Shown here in pieces: positions 9,726 to 28,650 of a stretch of DNA of 64,000 nt (positions are counted from its first letter, which is position 1; each line of letters begins with the position of its first letter). Under the pieces are notes generated by a model. The model searched no databases. It worked only from the letters and a program-made list of their open reading frames with translations, and was not told the DNA's origin. A program made the translations under genes and the position numbers. This DNA comes from Prochlorococcus sp. AG-402-G19 (lineage in GTDB: Bacteria > Cyanobacteriota > Cyanobacteriia > PCC-6307 > Cyanobiaceae), in NCBI GenBank assembly GCA_003279455.1, contig QCHU01000001.1:1-64000 (forward strand), in the 5' to 3' direction.

Positions 9726-9779
9726 GCTTCTATATGCTTAATATTGACGAAATCCCTCTATAAAAGGTTTTCCAATAAA

Positions 9780-10013
9780 AAAGACCCTAGGTATGGTGTC
9801 CTACGGGTCTGGGTGATGGGGATACTATTTCTAACCCTATTTCCTATATAAATCAACCCCCCCCCTACAGATGGTGTTCATTTAAGCCTGAGATAAAACA
9901 TATGGTGCTTTAACGTTGCCTAATCTGATTGATTTGATTATTATTTTTGAAAAAGCTGGGTGACGGGGATCCTTCAGCAGTTTGTTTTGCCCTCATGAGT
10001 GAGGGCTTTTTTT
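9780..10013 (+). ncRNA. sRNA-like locus 1 (double CTGGGTGAYGGGGAT motif)
   Basis: A non-coding segment built of a hairpin AGACCCTAGG/CCTAcGGGTCT (9782-9810), the motif CTGGGTGATGGGGAT (9809-9823), a spacer with a C9 run, a second motif CTGGGTGACGGGGAT (9956-9970), and a terminator hairpin GCCCTCA/TGAGGGC followed by T7 (9989-10013). The same order and near-identical spacing occur on the minus strand at 26393-26640. No ORF of useful length fits. I infer a duplicated regulatory RNA. The G-rich motif could pair with C-rich mRNA segments. I could not match it to a named RNA. Confidence 0.6.
9989..10013 (+). terminator. strong rho-independent terminator
   Basis: GCCCTCA - tgag - TGAGGGC followed by seven T residues. 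It closes sRNA-like locus 1. Confidence 0.9.
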
Positions 10014-10853: not shown

Positions 10854-11372
10854 ATGTCTCAGTTATCCATCAAAGTTAGTGCTAAAGGTGATGCCTTGAT
10901 TGCTACCTTGCAAAAGGAGATCTTTAACAGACGTCGTAAGAAGGTTACTGCTTCTCAAGTCGTTGAAACCCTTGTTGAAAGCGGTGCTAAATCTCAGTCT
11001 GATAAACGGTACGCAGCTTCTTGGAAAAACCTAATTAAAGATATCGAAAAAGCAGCTAAAGTTTCTGAGGTTCATGGAAATAAGCCAGCAAATATTAGTG
11101 CTGATGAATGGGCTTTAATTCTTTCTCATCGCACACGTAAAGGCTCTGCTCCAAAAGCTGCTACAGCAAAAAAAACCACAGCTAAAAAAGCTGTCGCAAA
11201 AAAAACGGTTGCTAAAAAGGCAACAGCAAAGAAAGCAGTAGCTAAAAAGCCTGTTGCTAAAAAGGCTGCAGCCAAAGCTAAAACTGAGGTTTCTGCAGTT
11301 GTTAAGCCAAGTGCTGGTAGACCTGCTAGACGTGCACGCAAAGCCAGGAAAGCACCTGAAGCTGCTAAATAA
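10854..11372 (+). CDS. histone H1-like DNA-binding protein with AT-hook-like end, 172 aa
   Basis: The complete paralogue of the truncated gene at 3-443. Residues 1-98 form a folded domain (QLSIKVSAKGDALIATL to ADEWALILSHRTRK). Residues 99-157 are a KKA-repeat tail like that of histone H1, and the end has GRPARRARKARK with an AT-hook-like GRP core. The N-terminal block RRKKVTASQVVETLVESGA looks like a helical nucleic-acid-binding unit. I infer nucleoid binding. A 3' RNA structure conserved with the paralogue follows. Confidence 0.8.
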   Translation: MSQLSIKVSAKGDALIATLQKEIFNRRRKKVTASQVVETLVESGAKSQSDKRYAASWKNLIKDIEKAAKVSEVHGNKPANISADEWALILSHRTRKGSAPKAATAKKTTAKKAVAKKTVAKKATAKKAVAKKPVAKKAAAKAKTEVSAVVKPSAGRPARRARKARKAPEAAK

Positions 11373-17906: not shown

Positions 17907-17939
17907 GTTCTTGATTTATTGATTAGATCCTAGCTTGAC

Positions 17940-18322
17940 CCCAAACATACTATTTTTGACCAGGTTAAGTGTAAAGGCAATGGGCATTAAGGCTGATTGC
18001 GTTGAGGTGCGAATAGAGCAAAGATACGTGTGTTGAGCTCAGAGGCACCATTGATGGTCGACACTCCACCTGAGTATTTAAGAGAAGCGAACTGAATTCT
18101 GGTTCCTGCTCCAACATTCTCAATGAATAAGTAGGCTATTCGTCTGATGCGACAAGGATCAATGATATAGGTGCGTCAATTCAGTCGAAACTCCTCTGCA
18201 TCGTTTAGGTGCCCTAACGGAGTACAAAAGCCTTTCTACTAGACACTTGGCCCCAGGCCACCAATATCCAGAAGCTTCTACAAAAGAATCGGTAAAGAAA
18301 AGGGCCCCCTAGGGCCCTTTTT
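17940..18322 (+). ncRNA. candidate structured RNA in the repeat (left copy)
   Basis: About 380 bases without a long ORF on either strand, ending in a perfect terminator AAAGGGCCC - CCTA - GGGCCCTTT plus T residues (18299-18322). The 5' limit is a guess. It does not show the landmarks of tmRNA, RNase P RNA, SRP RNA or 6S RNA that I would recognise. Confidence 0.45.
18299..18322. terminator. perfect 9-bp hairpin terminator
   Basis: AAAGGGCCC and GGGCCCTTT are separated by CCTA. It is symmetric, so it can act in both directions. The single difference between the repeat copies falls in its T tail. Confidence 0.85.
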
Positions 18323-18423
18323 AAATGTCTAATAAGAAGAGTTTTATTCTTTCTACGGTTTCCCTACCTAAGACGTACGGTCCTACAGAACTATTGAAGA
18401 AAGGGAGAATTTAAAATAAATGT

Positions 18424-18490
18424 ACGTCAGGCAATCAATTGCATTGGTCATCAATTGATTGGCTTCTGGGGGGGAGCACTGACGTTTTTT
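18424..18490 (+). ncRNA. compact double-stem RNA element in the repeat
   Basis: The outer stem ACGTCAG/CTGACGT (18424-18430 with 18479-18485) encloses a perfect 10-bp stem CAATCAATTG/CAATTGATTG (18432-18461) and a free GCTTCTGGGGGGGAGCA strand, then T6. A 10-bp hairpin ACAACCTTCT/AGAAGGTTGT follows at 18501-18536. It looks like a small RNA with its terminator; the G7 run would be single stranded. Confidence 0.5.
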
Positions 18491-18624
18491 ATTCAAAGAA
18501 ACAACCTTCTAAAGCTCAGTATAAAAAGAAGGTTGTCCTGAGAAGTTTCAAAAATATAAGAACAAACCACTATCAGCCGTGTAGGAATAATTACTTATAT
18601 ACCTGTTTTTATTTTCTCTACAGA

Positions 18625-18855
18625 TTAGTTGCCATCGCAATCTTCATCTTTTGGCAACTGAAGCCATCCACTTGTCCACTTTGAGTATGTTTTTAATTCC
18701 GACCATGGAACTTTTATAAGAATTTCGTTGTTGTTGACTGCAAATAGTTCTACCCACCGTTCATCTTTTTTGCCTCCATAGCTTTTAACTTCAAAATGTC
18801 GATAACCTTCTCTTTTTACGGCTGAGGTCCAAGCTGCATTCGGTGGCCATCTCAT
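18625..18855 (-). CDS. TIGR02450-like small Trp-rich protein, 76 aa
   Basis: Six tryptophans in 76 residues. Blocks AAWTSAVKREGYRHFEVKSYGG, RWVELFAV and LKTYSKWTSGWLQL match the small Trp-rich family of marine bacteria and cyanobacteria known as TIGR02450. Soluble. No function known to me. The acidic DEDCDGN tail is unremarkable. Confidence 0.75.
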   Translation of the reverse strand: MRWPPNAAWTSAVKREGYRHFEVKSYGGKKDERWVELFAVNNNEILIKVPWSELKTYSKWTSGWLQLPKDEDCDGN

Positions 18856-18958
18856 TTAGTTTCCTCTTTTCTTCATGCCTTCTCTCTTTTTCCACTTTAG
18901 TCTAAATTTATACACTTAAACCTTTTTTATGTTTTATATTTTTGTAAATTTATCATAA

Positions 18959-19099
18959 TTAATCTAAAAAGATTCCAGAAGCAGATAGCTCTTTTCTCTC
19001 TTTTGGATCTGTATATGTGTTTTCGTATTGCCTAAAATATATAGGTGTACATATTACCAAAACTAAAATTATTAGAAGATATTGTACTTGTTTTTTCAA
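18959..19099 (-). CDS. single-TM small protein, 46 aa
   Basis: A TTG start (codons further upstream are also open). One membrane helix (YLLIILVLVICTPIYF) is followed by a charged tail (ERKELSASGIFLD). Function unknown. Confidence 0.4.
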   Translation of the reverse strand: MKKQVQYLLIILVLVICTPIYFRQYENTYTDPKERKELSASGIFLD

Positions 19100-19237
19100 C
19101 TTCTTATTAAATGCTTGATTGATCTAATGATTGGTTTTCATCCAAGCATCAGTCCTAATATTGCTCATAAATATACCGCTTCGCTCCATCAAACAGATAT
19201 GTTTATTTTGAATTAGTTTTTTTGCCGCAGGTCCTAT

Positions 19238-19272
19238 ATCAAGCTATATTGATTATATCAAATAATATTGAT
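19238..19272 (+). promoter_or_regulatory. tandem ArsR-like operators upstream of pstS
   Basis: Two 6-4-6 palindromes, ATCAAG-CTAT-ATTGAT (19238-19253) and ATCAAA-TAAT-ATTGAT (19257-19272), 19 bases apart. They match the palindrome ATCAAT-TTAT-ATTGAT between gap and arsR (22999-23014). This suggests that the local ArsR also represses pstS. Their position also argues that pstS translation starts downstream of 19275. Confidence 0.65.
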
Positions 19273-19328
19273 CAATGTTAGTGCCTTCACGTCCTATGCT
19301 TTCATTGCTTTTACGTCGCAGACCTTTG

Positions 19329-20300
19329 ATGAGCTTTGCTAAGAAGAGTCTTGTCCTCTCCTCTTTAATTATTCTTGGCTCAGGTGGAAGTGCCTTTGCG
19401 GGTGCTCGACTCAGCGGAGCTGGAGCCTCTTTTCCAGCTAAAATCTACACTCGATGGTTCTCTGACTTAGCTAAAGAGCGTGGACCTCGTGTTAACTATC
19501 AAGCTGTTGGTTCAGGTTCTGGCCGTAAAGCTTTCATTGATGAAACCGTTAATTTCGGTGCGTCTGATGATCCGATGAAAGCAACAGATATTGCAAAAGT
19601 TACGCGGGGATTAGTTCAAATCCCAATGGTTGGTGGCACTATTGCTTTTGGTTATAACTACGATTGCGATCTTAAACTTACTCAAGAGCAAGCTGTTCGT
19701 GTTGCTATGGGTAAAATTACAAACTGGAAAGAGGTTGGTTGCCCTGAAGGAAAACTAACTTGGGCACATCGTTCTGATGGCTCCGGTACTACGAAGGCTT
19801 TTACAAATTCCATGCAGGCTTTCTCTAAGACATGGACTCTAGGAACAGGTAAATCTGTCGCCTGGCCTGCTGGTGTTGGTGGTAAAGGTAATGCTGGTGT
19901 TGCTGGCATTATTCGTAACACTCCTGGTGCAATTGGTTATGTAAACCAGTCATATATTAGAGGTGAAATCAAAGCAGCCGCTCTCCAAAATTTATCAGGA
20001 GAGTTTTTACAGCCAACTACTGAGGCTGGTGCGATTGCTCTTAATGGAATACAACTAGATAAAAATCTAGCCGGTAATAACCCTAACCCTAAGGCCAAGG
20101 GCGCATACCCAATCGCAACCCTTACATGGATTCTTGCTTACGAAACTGGTAATGGTAGAAGCACTGATGCCATTAGAGATTCACTTAACTACCTACTAAG
20201 TGATAAAGCCCAGGCTAAGGCTCCTTCTCTTGGCTTTGTTCCTCTAAAAGGTGATATTCTTTCCAAGTCTCGCGCTGCTGTAAAGCGTATTGGTAAGTGA
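19329..20300 (+). CDS. pstS: phosphate ABC transporter substrate-binding protein PstS
   Basis: A periplasmic phosphate-binding protein. A signal peptide (SFAKKSLVLSSLIILGSGGSAFAG) precedes the mature LSGAGASFPAKIYTRW. Phosphate-binding blocks are visible: GSGSGRKAF, GASDDPM and HRSDGSGTT. Normal length at 323 residues. An ATG at 19275 would add 18 residues, but it directly abuts two ArsR-like operators, so I place the start at 19329. No pstCAB genes are adjacent. In this setting, extra PstS could favour phosphate over arsenate during arsenate stress. Confidence 0.92.
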   Translation: MSFAKKSLVLSSLIILGSGGSAFAGARLSGAGASFPAKIYTRWFSDLAKERGPRVNYQAVGSGSGRKAFIDETVNFGASDDPMKATDIAKVTRGLVQIPMVGGTIAFGYNYDCDLKLTQEQAVRVAMGKITNWKEVGCPEGKLTWAHRSDGSGTTKAFTNSMQAFSKTWTLGTGKSVAWPAGVGGKGNAGVAGIIRNTPGAIGYVNQSYIRGEIKAAALQNLSGEFLQPTTEAGAIALNGIQLDKNLAGNNPNPKAKGAYPIATLTWILAYETGNGRSTDAIRDSLNYLLSDKAQAKAPSLGFVPLKGDILSKSRAAVKRIGK

Positions 20301-20317
20301 ATTAATTCCTTATAAAT

Positions 20318-20346
20318 TAGAAAGGAGGCAATAGCCTCCTTTTTAA
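20318..20346 (+). terminator. terminator after pstS
   Basis: AAAGGAGGC - aata - GCCTCCTTTTTAA, 21 bases after the pstS stop. Confidence 0.9.
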
Positions 20347-20422
20347 TGTCTTTTTTTGCTAGCCAGTCACTTCCTAACTTAAGCTGAAAAAAAGATCTTT
20401 AATATGAAAAAAAAAAGAATCA

Positions 20423-20557
20423 ATGAATAATTGGAAGGAAATAGTTGGATCACCCATTTGGTGGGTTCCAGTTTCACTACTAGTTTTATTTATTTCGATT
20501 GAGGGATTACATCTAGCCGATCATGGTAAAAACTGTAAAACGAAAGCAGCTTGGTGA
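20423..20557 (+). CDS. single-TM small protein, 44 aa
   Basis: ATG at 20423. NNWKEIVGSPIWW leads into a membrane helix (PVSLLVLFISIEGL), then HLADHGKNCKTKAAW. It lies between pstS and arsJ. Function unknown. Confidence 0.5.
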   Translation: MNNWKEIVGSPIWWVPVSLLVLFISIEGLHLADHGKNCKTKAAW

Positions 20558-20648
20558 ATGAAGTTGGACTTGAATATGATCGAGAATCAGAGGTTCAATA
20601 GTCTTTCTTTCGCGTGATATTTAATTTATTTTTAATTGATATGGGATC

Positions 20649-21911
20649 TTAGGCTTTTTCAATAGCTATAGCACTTGATACTGATGGTAGTCGTAAACTA
20701 GTCAACAATGAGATAAATACAAATAGGCTTGAACACCATAAACATAGTTGCATTCCTATAGAGGCATTAGCTCCAAGCATGAATAAAACTCCTGATAGGA
20801 GAGTACCAATCAGTCTCCCTGCCGCATTTGCCATGTAATAGAAGCCGACGTTTAGACTCACGTTTTCCTTGTCTGTATAAGCAAGAACCATATATGAATG
20901 TATTGATGAGTTCATTGCAAAAATGAACCCAAATAATATCAATCCAGCTGTAATTGCTATTTCTGGATTGCTTTGTCGCCATAGCGCTATTGCTATTAGC
21001 GCTGGTATTGCAGTTAAGGCAGCGCTCCAGAATTGAACAGAAGAAACCCCTGGGCTTGTTTTATTTCCCCATAAATTTCTTAAAGACGGCGCAAACGCTT
21101 GAATAAATCCATAACCAATAACCCACAATCCTAGAAAAGCTCCAATCTCAGAAAAATTCCAATTTAGATACGTTTCAAGGAAAACAGGAAGTGCTACGAC
21201 AAACCATACATCTCTTGCCCCAAAGAGAAAAAAACGTGCAAAAGATAGAACGTTGATCCCTTGAGATTTAGAGAATAAGTCATTAAAGATGGGTTTGCTT
21301 TTCATCTTTCCAATATCTCCAGGCAAAATTAATGTCATTAAAAATGACAGACCTAAACCGATAGCCATTACTTCAACTGCCTCGTTAAAACCAAAACTGG
21401 TAAGCAACAATCCACCAAGAAAGAAGCCAACTCCTTTGAGCGCATTTTTTGAACCTGTTAAGATAGCTACCCATTTAAATAATTGAATATTTCCACCATC
21501 GTCTTCTGAGGAGTCTGGAACAACAGTTTTGATGGCACTTTTAGCACTCATCTTATTTAGATCTTTTGCTATACCACTAATTGCTTGAGCAACCATGACA
21601 TAAATGACACTCAAAAGTTTCGACCAGCCACTTGAAACGGGTATCAACATCAATAAGGCAACGATTTGTAAAAGAGTCCCGACCCAAAGTGTTAGACGTA
21701 ATCCATATCTTGCTCCTATCCATCCTCCATAGAGATTAGCAATAATGCCAAAGAACTCATAAAAAAGGAATAAGAATGCGATTTCTAATGTTGTATATCC
21801 AAGGCTATGAAAATGAAAAATCACTAGCATTCTTAGAGCACCATCTGTCAGTGTGAATGCCCAATAGTTGGTCGTTACGATTCCATATTGTTGTAATGCC
21901 GTTAATCGCAT
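20649..21911 (-). CDS. arsJ: organoarsenical efflux MFS transporter ArsJ
   Basis: A 420-residue major-facilitator protein with about twelve membrane segments, in an operon with a GAPDH and next to arsR. ArsJ exports 1-arseno-3-phosphoglycerate, which GAPDH makes from glyceraldehyde 3-phosphate and arsenate. The product hydrolyses outside and so removes arsenate. N-terminal blocks NYWAFTLTDGALRMLVIFHF and GWIGARYGLRLTLW fit this family. The gene starts ten bases after the gap stop. Gene context is the main evidence for the substrate. Confidence 0.88.
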   Translation of the reverse strand: MRLTALQQYGIVTTNYWAFTLTDGALRMLVIFHFHSLGYTTLEIAFLFLFYEFFGIIANLYGGWIGARYGLRLTLWVGTLLQIVALLMLIPVSSGWSKLLSVIYVMVAQAISGIAKDLNKMSAKSAIKTVVPDSSEDDGGNIQLFKWVAILTGSKNALKGVGFFLGGLLLTSFGFNEAVEVMAIGLGLSFLMTLILPGDIGKMKSKPIFNDLFSKSQGINVLSFARFFLFGARDVWFVVALPVFLETYLNWNFSEIGAFLGLWVIGYGFIQAFAPSLRNLWGNKTSPGVSSVQFWSAALTAIPALIAIALWRQSNPEIAITAGLILFGFIFAMNSSIHSYMVLAYTDKENVSLNVGFYYMANAAGRLIGTLLSGVLFMLGANASIGMQLCLWCSSLFVFISLLTSLRLPSVSSAIAIEKA

Positions 21912-21921
21912 GTTTTTATTT

Positions 21922-22947
21922 TTAGCCTTTTTCGAGATTTATGACATGGCAAACGAGATCTGCCATTCGACAGCTATAACCCCATTCATTGTCATACCAA
22001 ATATAGACTTTTAGTTGAGTTTTGTTGACCACCATGGTTGAGAGAGCATCAATGATTGAACTTCTCGAGTCATTCACATAATCGATTGATACAAGTGGCT
22101 TTTCTTCGTAACCAAGTATTCCTTTTAGCTCTCCTTCAGAGGCTTCTTTGAACACATGATTGACTTCTTCTTGCGTGACCTCTTTCTCTAATTCAAATAC
22201 AGCATCAGTTAAAGATCCATTGAGGACAGGAACTCGAACTGCATGACCATTTAATTTTCCTTGTAATTCAGGGAATATCATCCCTATCGCTTTGGCTGAT
22301 CCTGTCGTTGTTGGAATTAAGCTTTGTGATCCGCTTCTGGCTCTTCTTAAATCCGGCTTAAATGAATCAACGATTACCTGAGTATTTGTTAGGTCATGGA
22401 GTGTAGTGATGCTTCCATGCTTAATACCAAAGGTTTGATTAACGACTTTCACGACTGGAGCTAAGCAATTAGTTGTGCAGGATGCTGCTGTTACTAAGCG
22501 ATGTTTATTGGGCTCATATAAATCATGATTAATACCGTAGACGATATTTAGAGCATCCTCACCCTGTATTTCACCTTTAACAGGACATGCAACGACAACT
22601 CTTCTCATTCCAAGAGTATCGAAATATGGATTTAATGTAAGAGGGGTTTTGAATTTTCCTGAACATTCGATAATTAGTTCTATTCCTTTTTCCTTCCATG
22701 GCACTTTTGCGAAATCACTTTCTTGAGAAAAAGATATTGGTTGACTTTCAATACTCAGGTTGTTTTGATCGTTGCTTATTGTTTTGTTCCAACGACCATG
22801 TACTGAATCAAATTCAAGTAAATGCGCAGCTCCCTTTGCATCACCCAATGGATCGTTGATATGTGTAATCTCGATATTTTCTCTACCCCAGAGCGCTCTT
22901 AGAACAAGTCGTCCTATTCGACCGAAACCATTAATACCGATTCGCAT
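21922..22947 (-). CDS. gap: ArsJ-associated glyceraldehyde-3-phosphate dehydrogenase
   Basis: 341 residues. The NAD-binding start [16 protein letters not shown] and the catalytic SCTTN block (Cys157) are present, with [21 protein letters not shown] and the [10 protein letters not shown]-terminal block. In this operon the enzyme should use arsenate in place of phosphate to form 1-arseno-3-phosphoglycerate for ArsJ. It differs from the photosynthetic Gap2 by its partner gene and by Asp32 after the first Rossmann unit, which favours NAD. The promoter faces arsR with the ArsR-like operator between them. Confidence 0.9.
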
Positions 22948-22998
22948 AACCTGTAATTGAGTTAATTGAGTAAATCAATGAAGGACTGGATTACTCAT

Positions 22999-23014
22999 AT
23001 CAATTTATATTGAT
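22999..23014. promoter_or_regulatory. ArsR-like operator between gap-arsJ and arsR
   Basis: ATCAAT-TTAT-ATTGAT is a perfect 6-4-6 inverted repeat in the divergent intergenic region. It can control both the gap-arsJ operon and arsR. Similar palindromes lie before pstS. Confidence 0.7.
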
Positions 23015-23085
23015 GTATAGAGGTTTGTCGATGCAAGCCTTTTCTGAAGTTTGTTTTATCATGTGATTATATTTTTCCTTCTGTG

Positions 23086-23415
23086 ATGGCCACAGCGATA
23101 AAGAGCGAAGTAGTTCTTGAAAATGCAATGGCTAGGAAATTGCTAAAAGCTTTATCTGATCCATTGCGATTGCAAATCATTGAGTCTCTTTCAGGAGGAG
23201 AACGATGTGTTTGCGATTTGATCAATGAAATTGGATTGGCTCAATCGAAAATATCTTTTCATTTAAAAGTTTTGAAAGACGCAGGCTTGATTACCGATAG
23301 GCAAACTGGTAGATGGGTTTATTACCAATTGAATATTGACTCGTTAAATTCTTTGCAAGATTGGATTGAACTATTAAAAGAAAGCTCGCAACAACCATCG
23401 CAAGCTTGTAAATAA
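23086..23415 (+). CDS. arsR: ArsR/SmtB-family repressor
   Basis: About 109 residues with a winged-helix fold. The metalloid-sensing ERCVCDL motif holds Cys42 and Cys44 (numbered from a GTG three bases upstream). The recognition helix is in GLAQSKISFHLKVLKDAG and the wing is GRWVYYQLN. A C-terminal cysteine (QACK) may be the third ligand. It should release DNA on binding As(III). It is divergent from gap-arsJ and probably represses itself, gap-arsJ and perhaps pstS. Confidence 0.92.
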   Translation: MATAIKSEVVLENAMARKLLKALSDPLRLQIIESLSGGERCVCDLINEIGLAQSKISFHLKVLKDAGLITDRQTGRWVYYQLNIDSLNSLQDWIELLKESSQQPSQACK

Positions 23416-23565
23416 AGCAATTAATTTAAATCTAGTTTCCAATTGATTTAGCTCTATTCAGAATTGTTCTAATAATTTTTAGGTAATTATTTCTACTAGG
23501 TATCAATGGATACTCTTTTATGCTTGGATAGTTATCATATTCTTATTACATCAAGATTTTTTGAT

Positions 23566-23724
23566 ATGAGCAAGAAAATCTCTAAGAAAGCCAGTGCTAT
23601 TAGAACAGTTTCATTAGCAGTTGGTTCTCTAAGCCTTCTCGTTATTGCTGTTTCTCAAGTTACAGGCAATGAGGCCTGCACAAGCAATGCTTATTCGATT
23701 GAAAATCAAATAAGACTTTCATGA
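23566..23724 (+). CDS. small exported or TM protein, 52 aa
   Basis: I take the ATG at 23566 rather than one 60 bases upstream, because MSKKISKKASAIRTVSL gives a normal basic start before the hydrophobic helix (AVGSLSLLVIAVSQV). The tail NEACTSNAYSIENQ is polar. Function unknown. Confidence 0.5.
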   Translation: MSKKISKKASAIRTVSLAVGSLSLLVIAVSQVTGNEACTSNAYSIENQIRLS

Positions 23725-23768
23725 TTTAATTTTCAATCTAAATATTTATAGTGCTTGATTTTTTTTAG

Positions 23769-23921
23769 GTGAATTTTTCAAGAGATATTTTTATTACTAG
23801 TTTAATTATTGTGGGATCCTCTACGATTGTTGGATATTTTTATCAACTTCAATTTGCTCTTGGATATGTATTTTTTAACGTGTTGCTACTATTTATTTGG
23901 TCAAAACTCGCATCTCGCTAA
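23769..23921 (+). CDS. small two-TM protein, 50 aa
   Basis: A GTG start. Two hydrophobic helices (IFITSLIIVGSSTIVGYF and ALGYVFFNVLLLFIW) are joined by YQLQF. Function unknown. Confidence 0.45.
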   Translation: MNFSRDIFITSLIIVGSSTIVGYFYQLQFALGYVFFNVLLLFIWSKLASR

Positions 23922-23950
23922 ACCTTCATTCATCTCGACTTGTACATAAA

Positions 23951-24088
23951 TTATTTTTGGTCTTGTGAAAAATCTGCTAGTTCCATTATTTTTTTAAATT
24001 CGTCCATCTCCTCATCCGAAACACCTGTTTTTTCCTGAAGTTCTTTTAATAAAGCATATATTTTTCTTTTGATATTTTCTTCGCTCAA
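23951..24088 (-). CDS. small acidic helical protein, LKxxTx family, 45 aa
   Basis: A TTG start. ENIKRKIYALLKELQEKTGVSDEEMDEF is close to the KELQMKTGCPDDDIDRF block of the gene at 36622-36798, and to similar blocks at 29225, 47678 and 53815. Soluble and helical. Function unknown. Confidence 0.5.
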   Translation of the reverse strand: MSEENIKRKIYALLKELQEKTGVSDEEMDEFKKIMELADFSQDQK

Positions 24089-24196
24089 AATTTTAAATTA
24101 AATAGATGACTAATTATATATTCAATTCCCCCTTAAACCTGTTTAGAGACGACATATTTTTGTAGTCAATAAGTACATATTATTTTGTTAGACAAT

Positions 24197-24373
24197 TTAG
24201 GCCTGTGCTCCATCTGCTACACGCATCGTCATTCCTCCATCCATGTCATCATCATCGTTGTTGTCCAATATTGCCTTTCCAACCTCATAAAGAAGATAAG
24301 TCCCAACAATAATTAGAACGAAAAGGAAACTAAAATCTCCTGAGTTTGAAGCGTATGTTTGAATTTCACCCAT
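24197..24373 (-). CDS. TM protein with acidic GGM tail (copy 2), 58 aa
   Basis: One membrane helix (FSFLFVLIIVGTYLLYEV) is followed by NNDDDDMDGGMTMRVADGA. Related in design to 17367-17501 and 26815-26991. Its ATG lies two bases after the stop of the 58-codon gene upstream, so they form an operon. Confidence 0.55.
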   Translation of the reverse strand: MGEIQTYASNSGDFSFLFVLIIVGTYLLYEVGKAILDNNDDDDMDGGMTMRVADGAQA

Positions 24374-24375
24374 AA

Positions 24376-24552
24376 TTATCCTCTGTTAAACAACCCTCTT
24401 CTTTTTTGTTGTGGCTTAGCTGCTCTAGTTCCACGAGACTGCTGCATTTCAGCTTTAGTAATTGGCTTACGATTTTGGAAAGTATCCCAACCAAGTAAAG
24501 CCACAGTTCCAATGGCTCCAAAGAAAAGAACTACACCTGGTATTAAATCCAT
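24376..24552 (-). CDS. single-TM basic-tail protein, 58 aa
   Basis: An N-terminal membrane helix (LIPGVVLFFGAIGTVALLGW) is followed by a basic tail (KPITKAEMQQSRGTRAAKP) ending KRRGLFNRG. First gene of a two-gene unit with the acidic-tail protein. Opposite tail charges suggest that the two proteins may pair; this is inference. Confidence 0.55.
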   Translation of the reverse strand: MDLIPGVVLFFGAIGTVALLGWDTFQNRKPITKAEMQQSRGTRAAKPQQKRRGLFNRG

Positions 24553-24662
24553 CTAGTTAAATTAAGTTCAACAAAGTTAGTGGAATTGTTATTTAGACCG
24601 TGGATAAAAAATATTGCTTCAGCTAATACCCCTGATAACTTTTGCTGTGTACGGGTGCCCCC

Positions 24663-24691
24663 TTTACATTCCTTTACTTTTCCTTTACATT
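24663..24691 (+). promoter_or_regulatory. HLR1-like RpaB site upstream of hli pair
   Basis: Three direct repeats, TTTACATT (24663), TTTACTTT (24673) and TTTACATT (24684), are spaced 2 and 3 bases apart. The HLR1 element bound by RpaB is two (G/T)TTACA(T/A)(T/A) units 2 bases apart. One unit has a mismatch. Confidence 0.6.
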
Positions 24692-24717
24692 CATGGCCAT
24701 TATTTGAGTTTAATCTC

Positions 24718-24825
24718 GTGACTCCAGAAGCAGAAAAGTTTAATGGTTGGATGGCAATGATCGGCTTTCTTGCTGCTTTCGGTGCTTACGCAACAACAGG
24801 TCAAATCATTCCAGGTATTTTTTAG
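24718..24825 (+). CDS. hli: high-light-inducible protein, 35 aa
   Basis: A GTG start. TPEAEKFNGWMAMIGFLAAF holds the one-helix Chl-binding signature (E..NGW.AM.GF) and the protein ends TTGQIIPGIF, the usual picocyanobacterial Hli C-terminus. Hli proteins sit in thylakoids and protect photosystems and chlorophyll under light stress. Nearly identical to the first gene of the cluster at 33578. It shares a transcript with the next hli, nine bases downstream. Confidence 0.9.
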   Translation: MTPEAEKFNGWMAMIGFLAAFGAYATTGQIIPGIF

Positions 24826-24833
24826 GTTCTTAT

Positions 24834-25130
24834 ATGACTTCTAGTAACCCAGTTTCTGATCAATCAATAGATCCAACTGATAATCAATCAGAAGGTCAAT
24901 CTGTTGATCCAACAGGAATCCCTGCTTACAGTTCTGCTTCTAACCAGATCATTACTGAATATGGCAAGCAAAACATGTTTGCTACCCAAGTACAAACTCA
25001 ATTAGTTGAAAACTATTCCAACTACCCTGAGGAAGCAGAAAAGACCAATGGTCGTTGGGCAATGATAGGAATGATTGCTTTACTTGGCGCTTATATCACT
25101 ACTGGTCAAATTATTCCTGGCATATTTTAA
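24834..25130 (+). CDS. hli: high-light-inducible protein with long N-terminal extension, 98 aa
   Basis: ATG at 24834. A polar, Ser/Asp/Gln-rich extension of about 60 residues (DPTDNQSEGQSVDPTGIPAY) precedes the Hli helix (EEAEKTNGRWAMIGMIALLG), and the protein ends TTGQIIPGIF. The E..NGRWAM chlorophyll-binding motif is intact. Thylakoid membrane; photoprotection. The long stromal arm is unusual beside the minimal 35-residue Hli upstream and may bind a partner. Confidence 0.9.
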   Translation: MTSSNPVSDQSIDPTDNQSEGQSVDPTGIPAYSSASNQIITEYGKQNMFATQVQTQLVENYSNYPEEAEKTNGRWAMIGMIALLGAYITTGQIIPGIF

Positions 25131-25159
25131 TTAGATTTAGACAAATAAATCTTCATATA

Positions 25160-25190
25160 AATCTAGAGATTTTTCTCTAGATTTTTTTTG
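25160..25190 (+). terminator. terminator after hli pair
   Basis: AATCTAGAG - atttttt-type loop - CTCTAGATT followed by a long T run. Confidence 0.85.
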
Positions 25191-25323
25191 TTCCATTCGA
25201 GCATTTAATACATTTTTTCCAGTTTTTGCAAAATAAAAATTTAAATAAGCAAAAAAATGCCAAAAGTAATCATTTTAGGAATAGTTCCTCAAATAATCTC
25301 CGCTTGTCCAAGCAAATTAATTC

Positions 25324-25428
25324 TTAGGAAATACGATCACTGATCATCCTTATCAATGGCGCAATTGACCCTATTGCAAGCACTGCAAACATAACAAAAA
25401 TGATTATTTTTGATTCCCATTTTTCCAT
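25324..25428 (-). CDS. 34-residue membrane peptide
   Basis: ATG at 25428. EKWESK leads into a membrane helix (IIIFVMFAVLAIGSIAPLI) and a short basic tail. Function unknown. Confidence 0.45.
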   Translation of the reverse strand: MEKWESKIIIFVMFAVLAIGSIAPLIRMISDRIS

Positions 25429-25529
25429 GAAAATGGTTTAGCTAATTACCACTTATATCTGTGGATTTTTTATAGCATTCGAAAAAATTAGTAATTTATT
25501 ATCAATCAATACTTTCAACAAGAAGATAA

Positions 25530-25790
25530 TCAGTCTTTACCGGAATTTTTACCAAAACCTGGAATAAAAGGAAATGCTTGATCATCTCCAAGGTCTGGTT
25601 CAGCAGTAGTTTTCGAACCATCCAAGGCATCACTCGACTCTTCGATCACAATACTCATAGAATTGTCTTGATTCATATCAGAACCCATTTGCGCGGACAT
25701 TACAGGGTTAATTCCTGAAAAGATTGTTGTTGAAGCTAAAAAAACAGACAAAGCTAAAAAACTAGCAGCCCTAAATATCTTTTTGAGCAT
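25530..25790 (-). CDS. secreted acidic peptide, FPF family (copy 3), 86 aa
   Basis: A signal peptide (residues 1-33, ending MSA) is followed by an acidic Met/Ser/Asp-rich segment and the terminal block DLGDDQAFPFIPGFGKN. The block aligns with GDEQVFPFPPGLGN at 16993-17238 and GPDTNFPFDPANH at 13605-13865. Exported. Function unknown. Confidence 0.65.
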   Translation of the reverse strand: MLKKIFRAASFLALSVFLASTTIFSGINPVMSAQMGSDMNQDNSMSIVIEESSDALDGSKTTAEPDLGDDQAFPFIPGFGKNSGKD

Positions 25791-25872
25791 GAATACAAAT
25801 CAGTTATACATAATCTAACGTCGGTATTCACCCGAACGTGTTAGGTCTGAATACTCAATCAGTGAGAATCAG

Positions 25873-25953
25873 TTAAATAATAGGCGTTGTGGCAATTGTT
25901 GAAACTTCTGAGAAGATAGCAACAGCCATGAATATGTAAGGAACTAATTTCAT
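25873..25953 (-). CDS. 26-residue peptide resembling the start of an SMR transporter
   Basis: ATG at 25953 to TAA at 25873. VPYIFMAVAIFSEVSTIATT resembles the first helix of small multidrug-resistance proteins (YIYLAxAIxxEVIGT), including the membrane Glu. The other three helices are missing. It may be a decayed remnant, a micropeptide, or a chance likeness. Confidence 0.35.
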   Translation of the reverse strand: MKLVPYIFMAVAIFSEVSTIATTPII

Positions 25954-26081
25954 TGTTTTTGTTAAATATGTGTTAAGCATATATGCTCATCATCTAATCA
26001 GTGGTAGCTGATTGTACGGTTCTCGCCCAAACGACCATAAGTAAATTTGTTTGTGGCTATAAAAATATCTGATAACCAATA

Positions 26082-26294
26082 TCAATTGCTATCACTGTTT
26101 TGTTGGATCGCTTTTCTTGCAAGATTTTCTAATTGATCAGGTGAAACTGGTGTCGTTTTGTTTTTACTTTCTTTTAATCCTCTTATTAAAGAAGTAATTA
26201 TTGCCAGTCCTAAAAATGCACCTAACCCCAACCAAAAAATTCTCTCTACTAAGAGTGCTGTGGGATTACCAATTGCACTAGTTACTTGTTCCAT
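26082..26294 (-). CDS. single-TM small protein, 70 aa
   Basis: One membrane helix (IFWLGLGAFLGLAIITSLI) is followed by a basic stretch and a polar helix (DQLENLARKAIQQNSDSN). Function unknown. Confidence 0.5.
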   Translation of the reverse strand: MEQVTSAIGNPTALLVERIFWLGLGAFLGLAIITSLIRGLKESKNKTTPVSPDQLENLARKAIQQNSDSN

Positions 26295-26392
26295 CTTTTC
26301 GATTAGAGAAAAACATAAGGATCAGTTCGAATTTTTATTGACTAGTTTTGCCTTGATCCATCCTAGAAATTACCCTCAGAAATTGATGGCAT

Positions 26393-26640
26393 AAAAAAAC
26401 CCTCAGATTTGAGGGAAAAGGTACTGAGAAATCCCCATCACCCAGTAACTCAAAAATACTACTCGTTGTGTACATATTACGCAAGCTAATAATCCCAGAT
26501 ATGGGTCTTTTTTTCTGTTTTTTTAATCTTTTTGACACCAGATATGGTAGGGGTTGCAATTTGGTTGAAAAACAGTTAAAAATAAGATCCCCATCACCCA
26601 GACCCGTAGGACACCATACCTAGGGTCTTTTTTATTGGAA
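26393..26640 (-). ncRNA. sRNA-like locus 2 (inverse copy of 9780-10013)
   Basis: Read on the minus strand it has a hairpin (26600-26628), the motif CTGGGTGATGGGGAT (26587-26601), a spacer, a second CTGGGTGATGGGGAT (26431-26445), then a terminator CCCTCA/TGAGGG with T7 (26393-26415). Motif spacing is 156 bases against 147 in locus 1. An overlapping minus ORF (26335-26559) runs through the terminator and is not credible. I infer the same duplicated regulatory RNA as locus 1. Confidence 0.6.
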
Positions 26641-26685
26641 TTGCTTTTTATTTAGAACTTTTGAGTTATTTAGTGAAACTGAAGC

Positions 26686-26694
26686 TGTGGAAAA
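26686..26694 (-). promoter_or_regulatory. DnaA-box-like nonamer upstream of sRNA-like locus 2
   Basis: TTTTCCACA on the minus strand, in the 16-base block shared exactly with 9715-9730. Its distance to the first hairpin is about the same in both loci. Confidence 0.35.
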
Positions 26695-26814
26695 CTTAGA
26701 CAGCTTTAAGTAATTTTTTACACAAGTTTCGATTAGATTAACATTCGCTTCGTGCTAACCGTAACACTAAATATTTTTAGATCAGTTAGGTTTATGCAAA
26801 CAATTTTCTGATAC

Positions 26815-26991
26815 ATGTCTGAGCTTCAGCTGGTTGACTCATTTCCCATCTGGAAAGCTGTTTTATGGTGTTTTTATCCTATGGCTGCTCTAGTTCTCGT
26901 AGAGCTTATCTCAAGAGCGCTTCCCGATGATGATGACGATTTCGGTGGTGGAAAGATGATTCCTGCTTACCAACCTGTCCGAGCAAGATAA
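26815..26991 (+). CDS. TM protein with D5-GGGM tail (copy 3), 58 aa
   Basis: SELQLVDSFPIWKAVLW leads into a membrane helix (YPMAALVLVELISRAL). PDDDDDFGGGKMIPAYQPVR follows, matching DDDDDGGGMMRPVRQ of 17367-17501. One member has NELQ and another SELQ at the N-terminus. Function unknown. Confidence 0.6.
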   Translation: MSELQLVDSFPIWKAVLWCFYPMAALVLVELISRALPDDDDDFGGGKMIPAYQPVRAR

Positions 26992-27100
26992 TTTAATCAT
27001 TGTTCTACTTCCATATTCATCTCCAATAGTTATCGATAATTAAATAAATAGGTTATAAATTATATCTTTTCATTGAGTATTTATACTTAAGTAGTGAGTT

Positions 27101-27613
27101 ATGGGGATTATGAAAGACTTTAATTCATTTGTTTTAGATTTCAGTGTAAGTATTCTTGATCGGATCTACGAAAATAGACCGATTCAACGTTTTTGGGTTC
27201 TTGAGGTAATTGCTAGAGCACCTTATTTTGCATTCTTATCAGTTTTGCATTTACAAGAGTCGCTTGGTCTAAAGACTCCTTTAAGCAACAAGCTTATGAA
27301 GGCTCATTTTTACCAAGCAATTAATGAGACGGAGCATTTAGAGGAGATGGAATCACGAAGCGGTAATAGATATTGGGTTGATCGATTTCTTGCTAGGCAT
27401 TTAGTGCTTTTTTATTACTGGGTAATGGTTTTTTATTACTTGTTATCTCCATCAAATGCATACGATATCAATATAAAAATTGAAGAGCATGCATATAAAA
27501 CTTACGCAAAGTATTTAACCGTTCATCCAAATGATCAGAGAATACGTGAAATTGCTCAGGATGAGATCAAGCATGCAAACGAATTAAAAGAAGCAATTAC
27601 TTTGATAAGTTAA
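27101..27613 (+). CDS. ptox: plastoquinol terminal oxidase (PTOX / AOX family)
   Basis: A 170-residue di-iron carboxylate oxidase. All six ligand positions are visible: Glu35 in LEVIARAPYF, Glu76 and His79 in NETEHL, Glu129 in IEEHAY, and Glu155 and His158 in DEIKHA. It oxidises plastoquinol and reduces oxygen to water at the thylakoid, relieving over-reduction in bright light or low iron. It is shorter than plant enzymes, as in other cyanobacteria. Start at 27101 or, three codons later, 27110. It lies beside the right repeat copy. Confidence 0.92.
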   Translation: MGIMKDFNSFVLDFSVSILDRIYENRPIQRFWVLEVIARAPYFAFLSVLHLQESLGLKTPLSNKLMKAHFYQAINETEHLEEMESRSGNRYWVDRFLARHLVLFYYWVMVFYYLLSPSNAYDINIKIEEHAYKTYAKYLTVHPNDQRIREIAQDEIKHANELKEAITLIS

Positions 27614-27668
27614 GATGCCAAATATTTGGTTGGTTTTCATAATAAGAATTTTCATTTTTGGTTTTTTA

Positions 27669-27938
27669 TTATCTAAAGCATGCATCTCCTACAATTCTGA
27701 GCTTCTCTATACGACTAAGGTCCTCTCTCTTTAGCAATGTTTTAGGGGAAAGTGCCAAGCCTAATTTGATTTTGTTGGGCAATGATTCAACTAATGATTC
27801 AATATCTGTTAAATCTTCATTGGATGATGCAACAACATCTTTTGTGCATTCCCAACCTTTGGTTGTAATGATTTGAGGCCATATAATCCAAAGACCGCTA
27901 AATGTACCGAGAATTAAAAAAAACAGATTTCTAATCAT
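27669..27938 (-). CDS. hypothetical exported or anchored protein, 89 aa
   Basis: One N-terminal hydrophobic segment (LFFLILGTFSGLWIIWPQI) is followed by a polar domain with two cysteines (GWECTKDVV and VGDACFR). It lies convergent to PTOX and next to the right repeat. No family recognised. Confidence 0.5.
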   Translation of the reverse strand: MIRNLFFLILGTFSGLWIIWPQIITTKGWECTKDVVASSNEDLTDIESLVESLPNKIKLGLALSPKTLLKREDLSRIEKLRIVGDACFR

Positions 27939-27968
27939 TATTCAGATTTAATTGAGACTAATTTTCAA

Positions 27969-28650
27969 TTATTGATTAGATCCTAGCTTGACCCCAAACA
28001 TACTATTTTTGACCAGGTTAAGTGTAAAGGCAATGGGCATTAAGGCTGATTGCGTTGAGGTGCGAATAGAGCAAAGATACGTGTGTTGAGCTCAGAGGCA
28101 CCATTGATGGTCGACACTCCACCTGAGTATTTAAGAGAAGCGAACTGAATTCTGGTTCCTGCTCCAACATTCTCAATGAATAAGTAGGCTATTCGTCTGA
28201 TGCGACAAGGATCAATGATATAGGTGCGTCAATTCAGTCGAAACTCCTCTGCATCGTTTAGGTGCCCTAACGGAGTACAAAAGCCTTTCTACTAGACACT
28301 TGGCCCCAGGCCACCAATATCCAGAAGCTTCTACAAAAGAATCGGTAAAGAAAAGGGCCCCCTAGGGCCCTTTTAAAATGTCTAATAAGAAGAGTTTTAT
28401 TCTTTCTACGGTTTCCCTACCTAAGACGTACGGTCCTACAGAACTATTGAAGAAAGGGAGAATTTAAAATAAATGTACGTCAGGCAATCAATTGCATTGG
28501 TCATCAATTGATTGGCTTCTGGGGGGGAGCACTGACGTTTTTTATTCAAAGAAACAACCTTCTAAAGCTCAGTATAAAAAGAAGGTTGTCCTGAGAAGTT
28601 TCAAAAATATAAGAACAAACCACTATCAGCCGTGTAGGAATAATTACTTA
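27969..28650 (+). repeat. 682-bp direct repeat, right copy
   Basis: The partner of 17916-18597; the only difference is A at 28375. It contains the same candidate RNAs: terminator at 28352-28375, double-stem element at 28477-28543 and hairpin at 28554-28589. The ends fall in unrelated flanking sequence, and no target-site duplication or integrase is visible. Confidence 0.95.

Follow-up and report, generated by a model that had tools for sequence, protein, structure and literature searches.

The noncoding RNA (ncRNA) Yfr103 of picocyanobacteria was reportedly first described by Voigt et al. in 2014. It is 290-328 nt long. Synechococcus CC9605 has seven paralogues, which jointly account for 55.2% of the mdRNA-Seq reads of this strain. 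In the part of the account drawn on here, homologues are given for SS120, NATL2A, MIT9313, RCC307, CC9902 and CC9311, a list from which MED4 is absent; the function of the RNA is called enigmatic, and in some samples it is the most abundant picocyanobacterial transcript, according to this Red Sea study (PMC5069720). The present analysis concerns the first 64,000 nt (forward strand; hereafter the window) of contig QCHU01000001.1 in the draft assembly of Prochlorococcus sp. AG-402-G19 (GCA_003279455.1). Two near-identical direct repeats, copies A and B, enclose there an interval of 10 kb. An earlier reading of the letters alone, the original prediction, had proposed the repeats as recombination substrates but had not recognised what they are. 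Judging from sequence, each is a Yfr103-family ncRNA gene followed by a downstream hairpin element.

Repeated RNA operons of the rRNA type are long near-identical genes that are kept alike and are able to recombine. Tycheposons and the genomic islands of Prochlorococcus hold variable nutrient and light-stress genes. Among small RNA candidates, cluster 9 of Axmann et al. (2005) has one member in SS120, one in MIT9313, four in WH8102 and none in MED4, in a 397-nt alignment; the cluster itself is given as a candidate only (PMC1242208). MED4 also has Yfr11 and Yfr16, of 149 and 138 nt, which are 74% alike (PMC2518516).

The repeat pair and its RNA family assignment

Alignment confirms exactly the direct-repeat pair first noted from the letters. 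The two copies align over 682 nt without indels, at a fixed offset of 10053, and differ at a single base (18322 T against 28375 A). The identity of 99.85% far exceeds chance, and beyond both limits the flanks are dissimilar. Since the copies differ at one base, it is unlikely that the assembler reused one collapsed sequence. No further match to the repeat was found in the assembly, a 1.28-Mb draft split over 45 contigs and 66.7% complete. As a DNA query, the repeat finds matches, some of them partial, in 71 of 149 relatives and in 31 of the 40 that belong to the same genus, with one genome compared per species. Both copies are found at the same flanking genes in 20 genomes, the present one counted.

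The RNA-like core conserved in the wider family (Table 1) contains blocks invariant over 21 sequences. A covariance model, R1, was run on 272 family genomes, namely the present one and a set of at least 90% completeness. Of these, 258 have a match, each with 1 to 7 copies when at most seven candidates are scored per genome. Seven strong full-length copies and one weak 92-nt match are found in G212, a genome of 2,510,659 bp that we take to be Synechococcus CC9605. Matches also occur in the genomes that we presume to be SS120, NATL2A, MIT9313, RCC307, CC9902 and CC9311. The assignment to Yfr103 is made because the seven strong copies in the putative CC9605 genome and the strain distribution agree with the published account (PMC5069720).

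Yfr103 is credited with a strongly conserved secondary structure. Covariation is slight here: the R1 consensus has 29 predicted pairs, of which 4 are changed on both sides, with a covariation term of only -0.45, and a single-sequence fold has a z of -1.93. No Rfam family matches the window at its gathering score, nothing convincing appears at a relaxed threshold, and the loci examined in relatives have none where Yfr103 lies. In the genus to which MED4 belongs, nine closed genomes carry a divergent, shorter R1 match (E 3e-14 to 3e-21) with the key motifs; in MED4 (G259) it lies at genome positions 979903-980091, plus strand (L217). Weak R1 matches also fall within Yfr8, Yfr11 and Yfr16 of MED4.

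Transcription of copy A would start near 17960, downstream of a candidate -10 element. With the putative terminator, this predicts a transcript from ~17960 to ~18325, ~366 nt long, which exceeds the range published for CC9605. Downstream of Yfr103, a hairpin with a T run is present in both copies (18424-18485 and 28477-28538); by its modelled fold, it may be a second small RNA. Among 25 copies, repeat positions 141-200 and 281-300 are nearly invariant, and in positions 421-540 the mean minority-letter share is ~7-14%. The last 140 nt (repeat 544-682, window 18459-18597) have diverged relatives that stand alone elsewhere in G007, G019, G022 and G032.

Concerted evolution of the copies

In 17 of the 20 genomes that hold both copies at this site, A and B differ at 0-4 positions; the remaining three show 9 (G024), 16 of 657 (G032) and 31 of 658 (G039) mismatches. 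For 19 pairs (G023, with only 354 nt aligned, was left out), the mismatch is 0.44% within a genome and 5.79% between genomes. In pairwise comparison between genomes, G023 again left out, the median is ~5% and the minimum 2.06%. The own-genome mismatches sum to 52, whereas every one of 100,000 permutations gave at least 370. In a tree of the same copies, 17 of 19 A copies are sister to the B copy of their own genome, the exceptions being G032 and G039. Constraint shared by the two copies is insufficient on its own as an explanation, since the fast-changing part of the repeat (417-540) is also far closer within genomes (1.16%) than between them (14.88%).

Drafts can reuse one collapsed repeat, and closed genomes were therefore given more weight. 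Seven same-genus relatives are closed or near-closed, six of them in a single contig and G039 in 7 contigs. Five of the seven have 0-3 mismatches between copies, and all seven together give 1.09% within against 4.66% between genomes.

Near-identity is also found in closed genomes outside the genus, in pairs picked, non-randomly, from the listed matches. In G074 the copies are 100% identical over 497 nt although 592 kb apart, and in G064 99.5% over 385 nt at a distance of 347 kb. G211 has four dispersed copies, some inverted, that are 98.4-99.4% alike; G213 has three at 99.5-100%, and G217 a pair at 100% over 434 nt. Further values are 99.8% (G338 and G200), 98.9% (G317) and 98.3% (G356). As a scale, copies from neighbouring species (G211/G213, G338/G356) are 94-95% alike. 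Among drafts, 100% pairs occur in G083 and in the same-genus G023 and G008, and 99% pairs in G086 and G069.

The copies thus evolve in concert inside most genomes. Because of this, recombination between them, as envisaged in the original prediction, is supported by sequence comparison. Gene conversion appears to be the simplest mechanism and is favoured since distant and inverted copies are homogenised too. The literature was searched for small RNAs of Prochlorococcus or cyanobacteria in connection with gene conversion or concerted evolution, for multicopy ncRNA, for islands with direct repeats, and for the orange carotenoid protein (OCP) with ncRNA or islands. Among the matches listed, no title or opening of an abstract describes such behaviour of Yfr103 copies or such brackets. 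One source treats gene conversion of cyanobacterial gene copies generally and, in the part concerned, without the term ncRNA (PMC3552681).

Gene content between Yfr103 copies

The original prediction went further and proposed that the 10-kb block could be lost, duplicated or circularised as a unit. This is not supported at the present locus. Both copies, with an interval between them, are present in each of the seven closed or near-closed relatives, at a spacing of 10.6-11.3 kb, or 26.0 kb in the genome taken as NATL2A. The gene content of the interval does change, without the repeats: G015 and G026 lack the section from pstS to arsR, and in G023 the interval is small but holds pstS. Other Prochlorococcus drafts (e.g. 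L047-L052) have the arsJ-gap-arsR-pstS group but not the repeat with it.

A single repeat that joins both outer flanks, the state sought in sibling genomes, is absent from these seven relatives and is seen at this locus only in two drafts, G013 and G026, as weak evidence; neither stretch contains N. The join in G026 is probably a product of the assembler, because a separate contig, C32, carries the rest of the interval but stops short of the repeat; the 150-nt ends of C32 share no 12-nt word with it. An excision with circle formation was considered for G026 and dropped, as the interval contig does not reach the repeat. G013 is 54% complete and has no PTOX match; one 268-nt piece of the interval and matches to hli-like and dispersed elements are present. 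Both single-repeat contigs may be assembly effects, and in several other drafts contigs end near the repeat. On another draft contig, G016:C21, a PTOX-like match (L104, 13541-13933) contains several internal stops and is probably a decayed gene. The flanks on this contig are joined in an unusual order, perhaps through a chimera of multiple displacement amplification (MDA).

The single-repeat state is found in closed genomes at another site. In closed G217, a pair of identical Yfr103 copies in direct orientation, at a distance of 2.7 kb, flanks genes for OCP, a CrtW-like ketolase and FRP. The ketolase matches Pfam FA_desaturase. G217 would be a Synechococcus, of the genus shared with the putative CC9605 and CC9902 genomes. 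Two closed genomes without OCP, G215 and G216, have exactly one Yfr103 at the site of this bracket and no operon. On one side, the single copy corresponds in alignment to copy 1 of G217 and its left flank; on the other side, to copy 2 and the flank with an RRM gene. Each of these genomes carries another Yfr103 elsewhere. This is the single-repeat state that recombination between direct repeats predicts; to this extent the original prediction is supported at the OCP bracket, and at the 10-kb interval the state is not reliably seen. The direct-repeat reaction, or its reverse, has probably happened here between species. Loss and gain are not firmly separable: a one-gene tree groups G215 and G216 as a clade (99/97), but its other parts are open. 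We favour loss because OCP adjoins Yfr103 in two genera. The site was worked out for G215 and G216 out of 13 OCP-less genomes.

OCP is present in 19 of 32 closed genomes searched, and at 5 of the 19 loci a Yfr103 match lies within ~1.5 kb. Wider stretches were examined for 10 loci, the other 9 at 1.5 kb only. The operon is bracketed by Yfr103 in five of the ten (G217, G224, G339, G348, G354); G220 and G352 have a single copy close to it, and G340, G064 and G351 have no copy there. The bracketing copies are 95% alike in G224 and only 68-70% in G339, G348 and G354, where an extra gene is enclosed.

A general link between Yfr103 and photoprotection genes was considered and rejected. Over 39 Yfr103 loci outside the genus (34 with 5 kb on both sides, OCP-centred loci excluded), OCP, CrtW and FRP occur within 5 kb only at G217, and at none was hli or PTOX found near Yfr103 at E 1e-6, a strict threshold for the short hli protein. 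Since the link failed, Yfr103 is not proposed here as a regulator of these genes. Other neighbours include pstS at 1.9 kb (G083), DUF2389 at 1.6 kb (G071) and RRM genes (G064, G217, G215). A gene for an RRM RNA-binding protein adjoins Yfr103 at the OCP bracket (L206 / L244, G217), and in G215 and G216 one lies beside the single copy. The bracketed content is not of one kind, because near-tandem pairs elsewhere enclose other genes: a glycosyltransferase in G083 and non-identified open reading frames (ORFs) in G212, G218 and G214.

Most of the gene content first proposed for the interval in the window stands: PstS, ArsJ, GAPDH, ArsR and a PTOX-like protein are assigned by family match, and one of the two ORFs named hli (24834-25130) is unmatched in Pfam and NCBIfam. 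In keeping with the proposal of recombination without an integrase, the only ORFs of at least 150 aa between the repeats are pstS, arsJ, gap, the PTOX-like gene or their shadows. No tRNA was found in the window. The intergenic element at 26567-26697 has relatives, ~75-91% alike, at other places in many same-genus genomes, and an inverted relative at 9762-9867 of the window. Two AAGAAA-rich direct-repeat stretches of the window, 168-269 and 11169-11270, are similar to each other and give, by eye, a lysine/alanine-rich reading.

Table 1. Coordinates in the window of the repeat copies, their putative RNA elements and the genes of the interval
Feature	Position	Strand	Basis and remarks
Repeat copy A, Yfr103-family gene with hairpin element 3'	17916..18597	+	Alignment, 682 nt
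Candidate -10 element TACTAT, copy A	17948..17953	+	Alignment
Yfr103 core, copy A	18037..18278	+	Covariance model R1; row used in building the model, its own score is no proof
Putative Yfr103 terminator, 11-pair hairpin and short T run	18297..18322	+	18280-18330 folds at -18.6 kcal/mol
Second strong hairpin, then T run	18424..18485	+	Fold; also in consensus fold of 25 copies
Third hairpin, 10 pairs	18501..18536	+	Fold; diverged relatives of this repeat part elsewhere in four relatives
Trp-rich protein (DUF2389 / TIGR02450), first interval gene	18625..18855	-	Family search
pstS (PstS, TIGR00975)	19275..20300	+	Family search
arsJ (ArsJ, NF033734)	20649..21911	-	Family search
gap, ArsJ-associated GAPDH (NF033735)	21922..22947	-	Family search
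arsR-type regulator	23083..23415	+	Family search
hli, as named in the original prediction; repeat families D1/D4	24685..24825	+	ORF list
hli, as named in the original prediction	24834..25130	+	ORF list; no Pfam or NCBIfam match
PTOX-like alternative oxidase	27101..27613	+	Pfam AOX, E 7.7e-16; no NCBIfam match
Repeat copy B	27969..28650	+	One mismatch to copy A (28375)
Yfr103 core, copy B	28090..28331	+	Covariance model R1

Readings of the locus and known systems

It is highly probable, in our judgement, that the window holds two copies of one Yfr103 RNA gene unit that are kept alike by recombination, mostly conversion, and that the island between them changes by internal events. The unit would consist of the Yfr103 ncRNA and ~270 nt with hairpin elements. 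Homologous recombination, for the most part gene conversion, would copy sequence between A and B, which would account for near-identity despite an old arrangement. The island would gain and lose genes through events of its own, and a crossover between the direct copies could excise the interval and leave one copy.

Several observations weigh against this reading. A promoter scan gave promoter-like sites on the minus strand only, the proposed TACTAT not among them, and a terminator scan listed none, the hairpin at 18297-18322 included. R1 finds no match in 14 of the 272 genomes, among them the same-genus G007 and G028, which stay unmatched with 150 candidates scored. There is an assembly gap at the repeat locus in G007; for G028, as for G020, the left flank and the protein of a left-flank gene are both unmatched, which makes these genomes uninformative on the locus. 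The strain names used here for the compared genomes are presumptive, except MED4, which the coordinates of Yfr11 fix. Clearly diverged copies are found in two of the seven closed or near-closed relatives, G032 and G039, and diverged paralogues are kept in others: 70% in G066, 83% over 76 nt in G071, and 69% for a third copy in G086. One of three compared G212 copies is ~80% alike, and values of 96% and 79-80% occur in G223. The near-identity in short-read drafts may also be partly assembler-made.

A population-level switch, with frequent loss, duplication or circularisation of the 10-kb block so that strains of one population differ, would draw on the concerted evolution of the direct repeats, on the single-repeat contigs of G013 and G026, and on the one-copy, no-operon state of closed G215 and G216. 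We think it unlikely, given the seven relatives that retain both copies and an interval, the remainder of the G026 interval on a contig whose ends are unlike the repeat, and the incompleteness of G013. Similarly improbable is that the copies are kept alike not by conversion within the cell but by crossover turnover, through cycles of loss and re-gain or through exchange from cell to cell. It predicts the same sequence pattern and would fit presence or absence with one copy at the OCP bracket. However, homogenisation extends to the distant or inverted copies of G074 and G211, between which a crossover would remove or invert long segments, and the two-copy order is retained in 20 genomes.

That the repeats are the ends of a mobile element, a composite transposon or a tycheposon-like island, is suggested by the island-like genes between them. 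It is very improbable: the interval lacks a recombinase-sized ORF and the window a tRNA, the repeat has no match at E 0.01 in 50,697 phage and 72,556 plasmid records, and the RNA gene is single or dispersed in other genomes. The proposal that the second copy is unreal, an assembly artefact or MDA chimera, is close to refuted. The draft that contains the window is indeed incomplete, and several relatives have contigs that end near the repeat, but the same order is found in six single-contig genomes and G039, and the window copies differ at one base.

Beyond two units kept alike mainly by conversion, Yfr103 pairs could act as exchange points that need no integrase, where cassettes come and go by RecA-type recombination. 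In low-light Prochlorococcus these would be phosphate/arsenate, PTOX and hli, and in Synechococcus OCP-crtW-frp. This broader proposal is tentative, and we regard it as possible rather than probable. If the copies did guide the turnover of photoprotection and nutrient cassettes, islands would have a route of turnover without integrases, and an abundant RNA gene would also shape the stress-gene content of the ocean. The near-identity of copies in many family genomes suggests strong pressure on the dose or identity of the RNA, or else frequent conversion in these small genomes. As a caution, short-read drafts can break or bypass at Yfr103 genes.

The locus shares with tycheposons and genomic islands its variable nutrient and light-stress genes; it differs from them in that the window lacks a tRNA and the interval an unassigned ORF of recombinase size. 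Unlike rRNA operons, the repeated gene is here an ncRNA of enigmatic function in a streamlined genome. Yfr11 and Yfr16 of MED4 are likewise duplicated, island-associated RNAs, and weak R1 matches lie inside both, but, as that source gives them, this pair is not near-identical (PMC2518516). The repeat may correspond to cluster 9 of Axmann et al. (2005), since the putative SS120 and MIT9313 genomes have one R1 copy each; the likeness is one of distribution, not of sequence, and the MED4 genome differs from the cluster, as described in the part concerned, by its divergent R1 match (PMC1242208). The account of Yfr103 covers, in the part drawn on here, paralogues and abundance rather than concerted evolution or direct-repeat brackets; the repeat resembles Yfr103 in its length range of ~300 nt, its multiple copies, its strain distribution and the seven copies in the putative CC9605 genome (PMC5069720).

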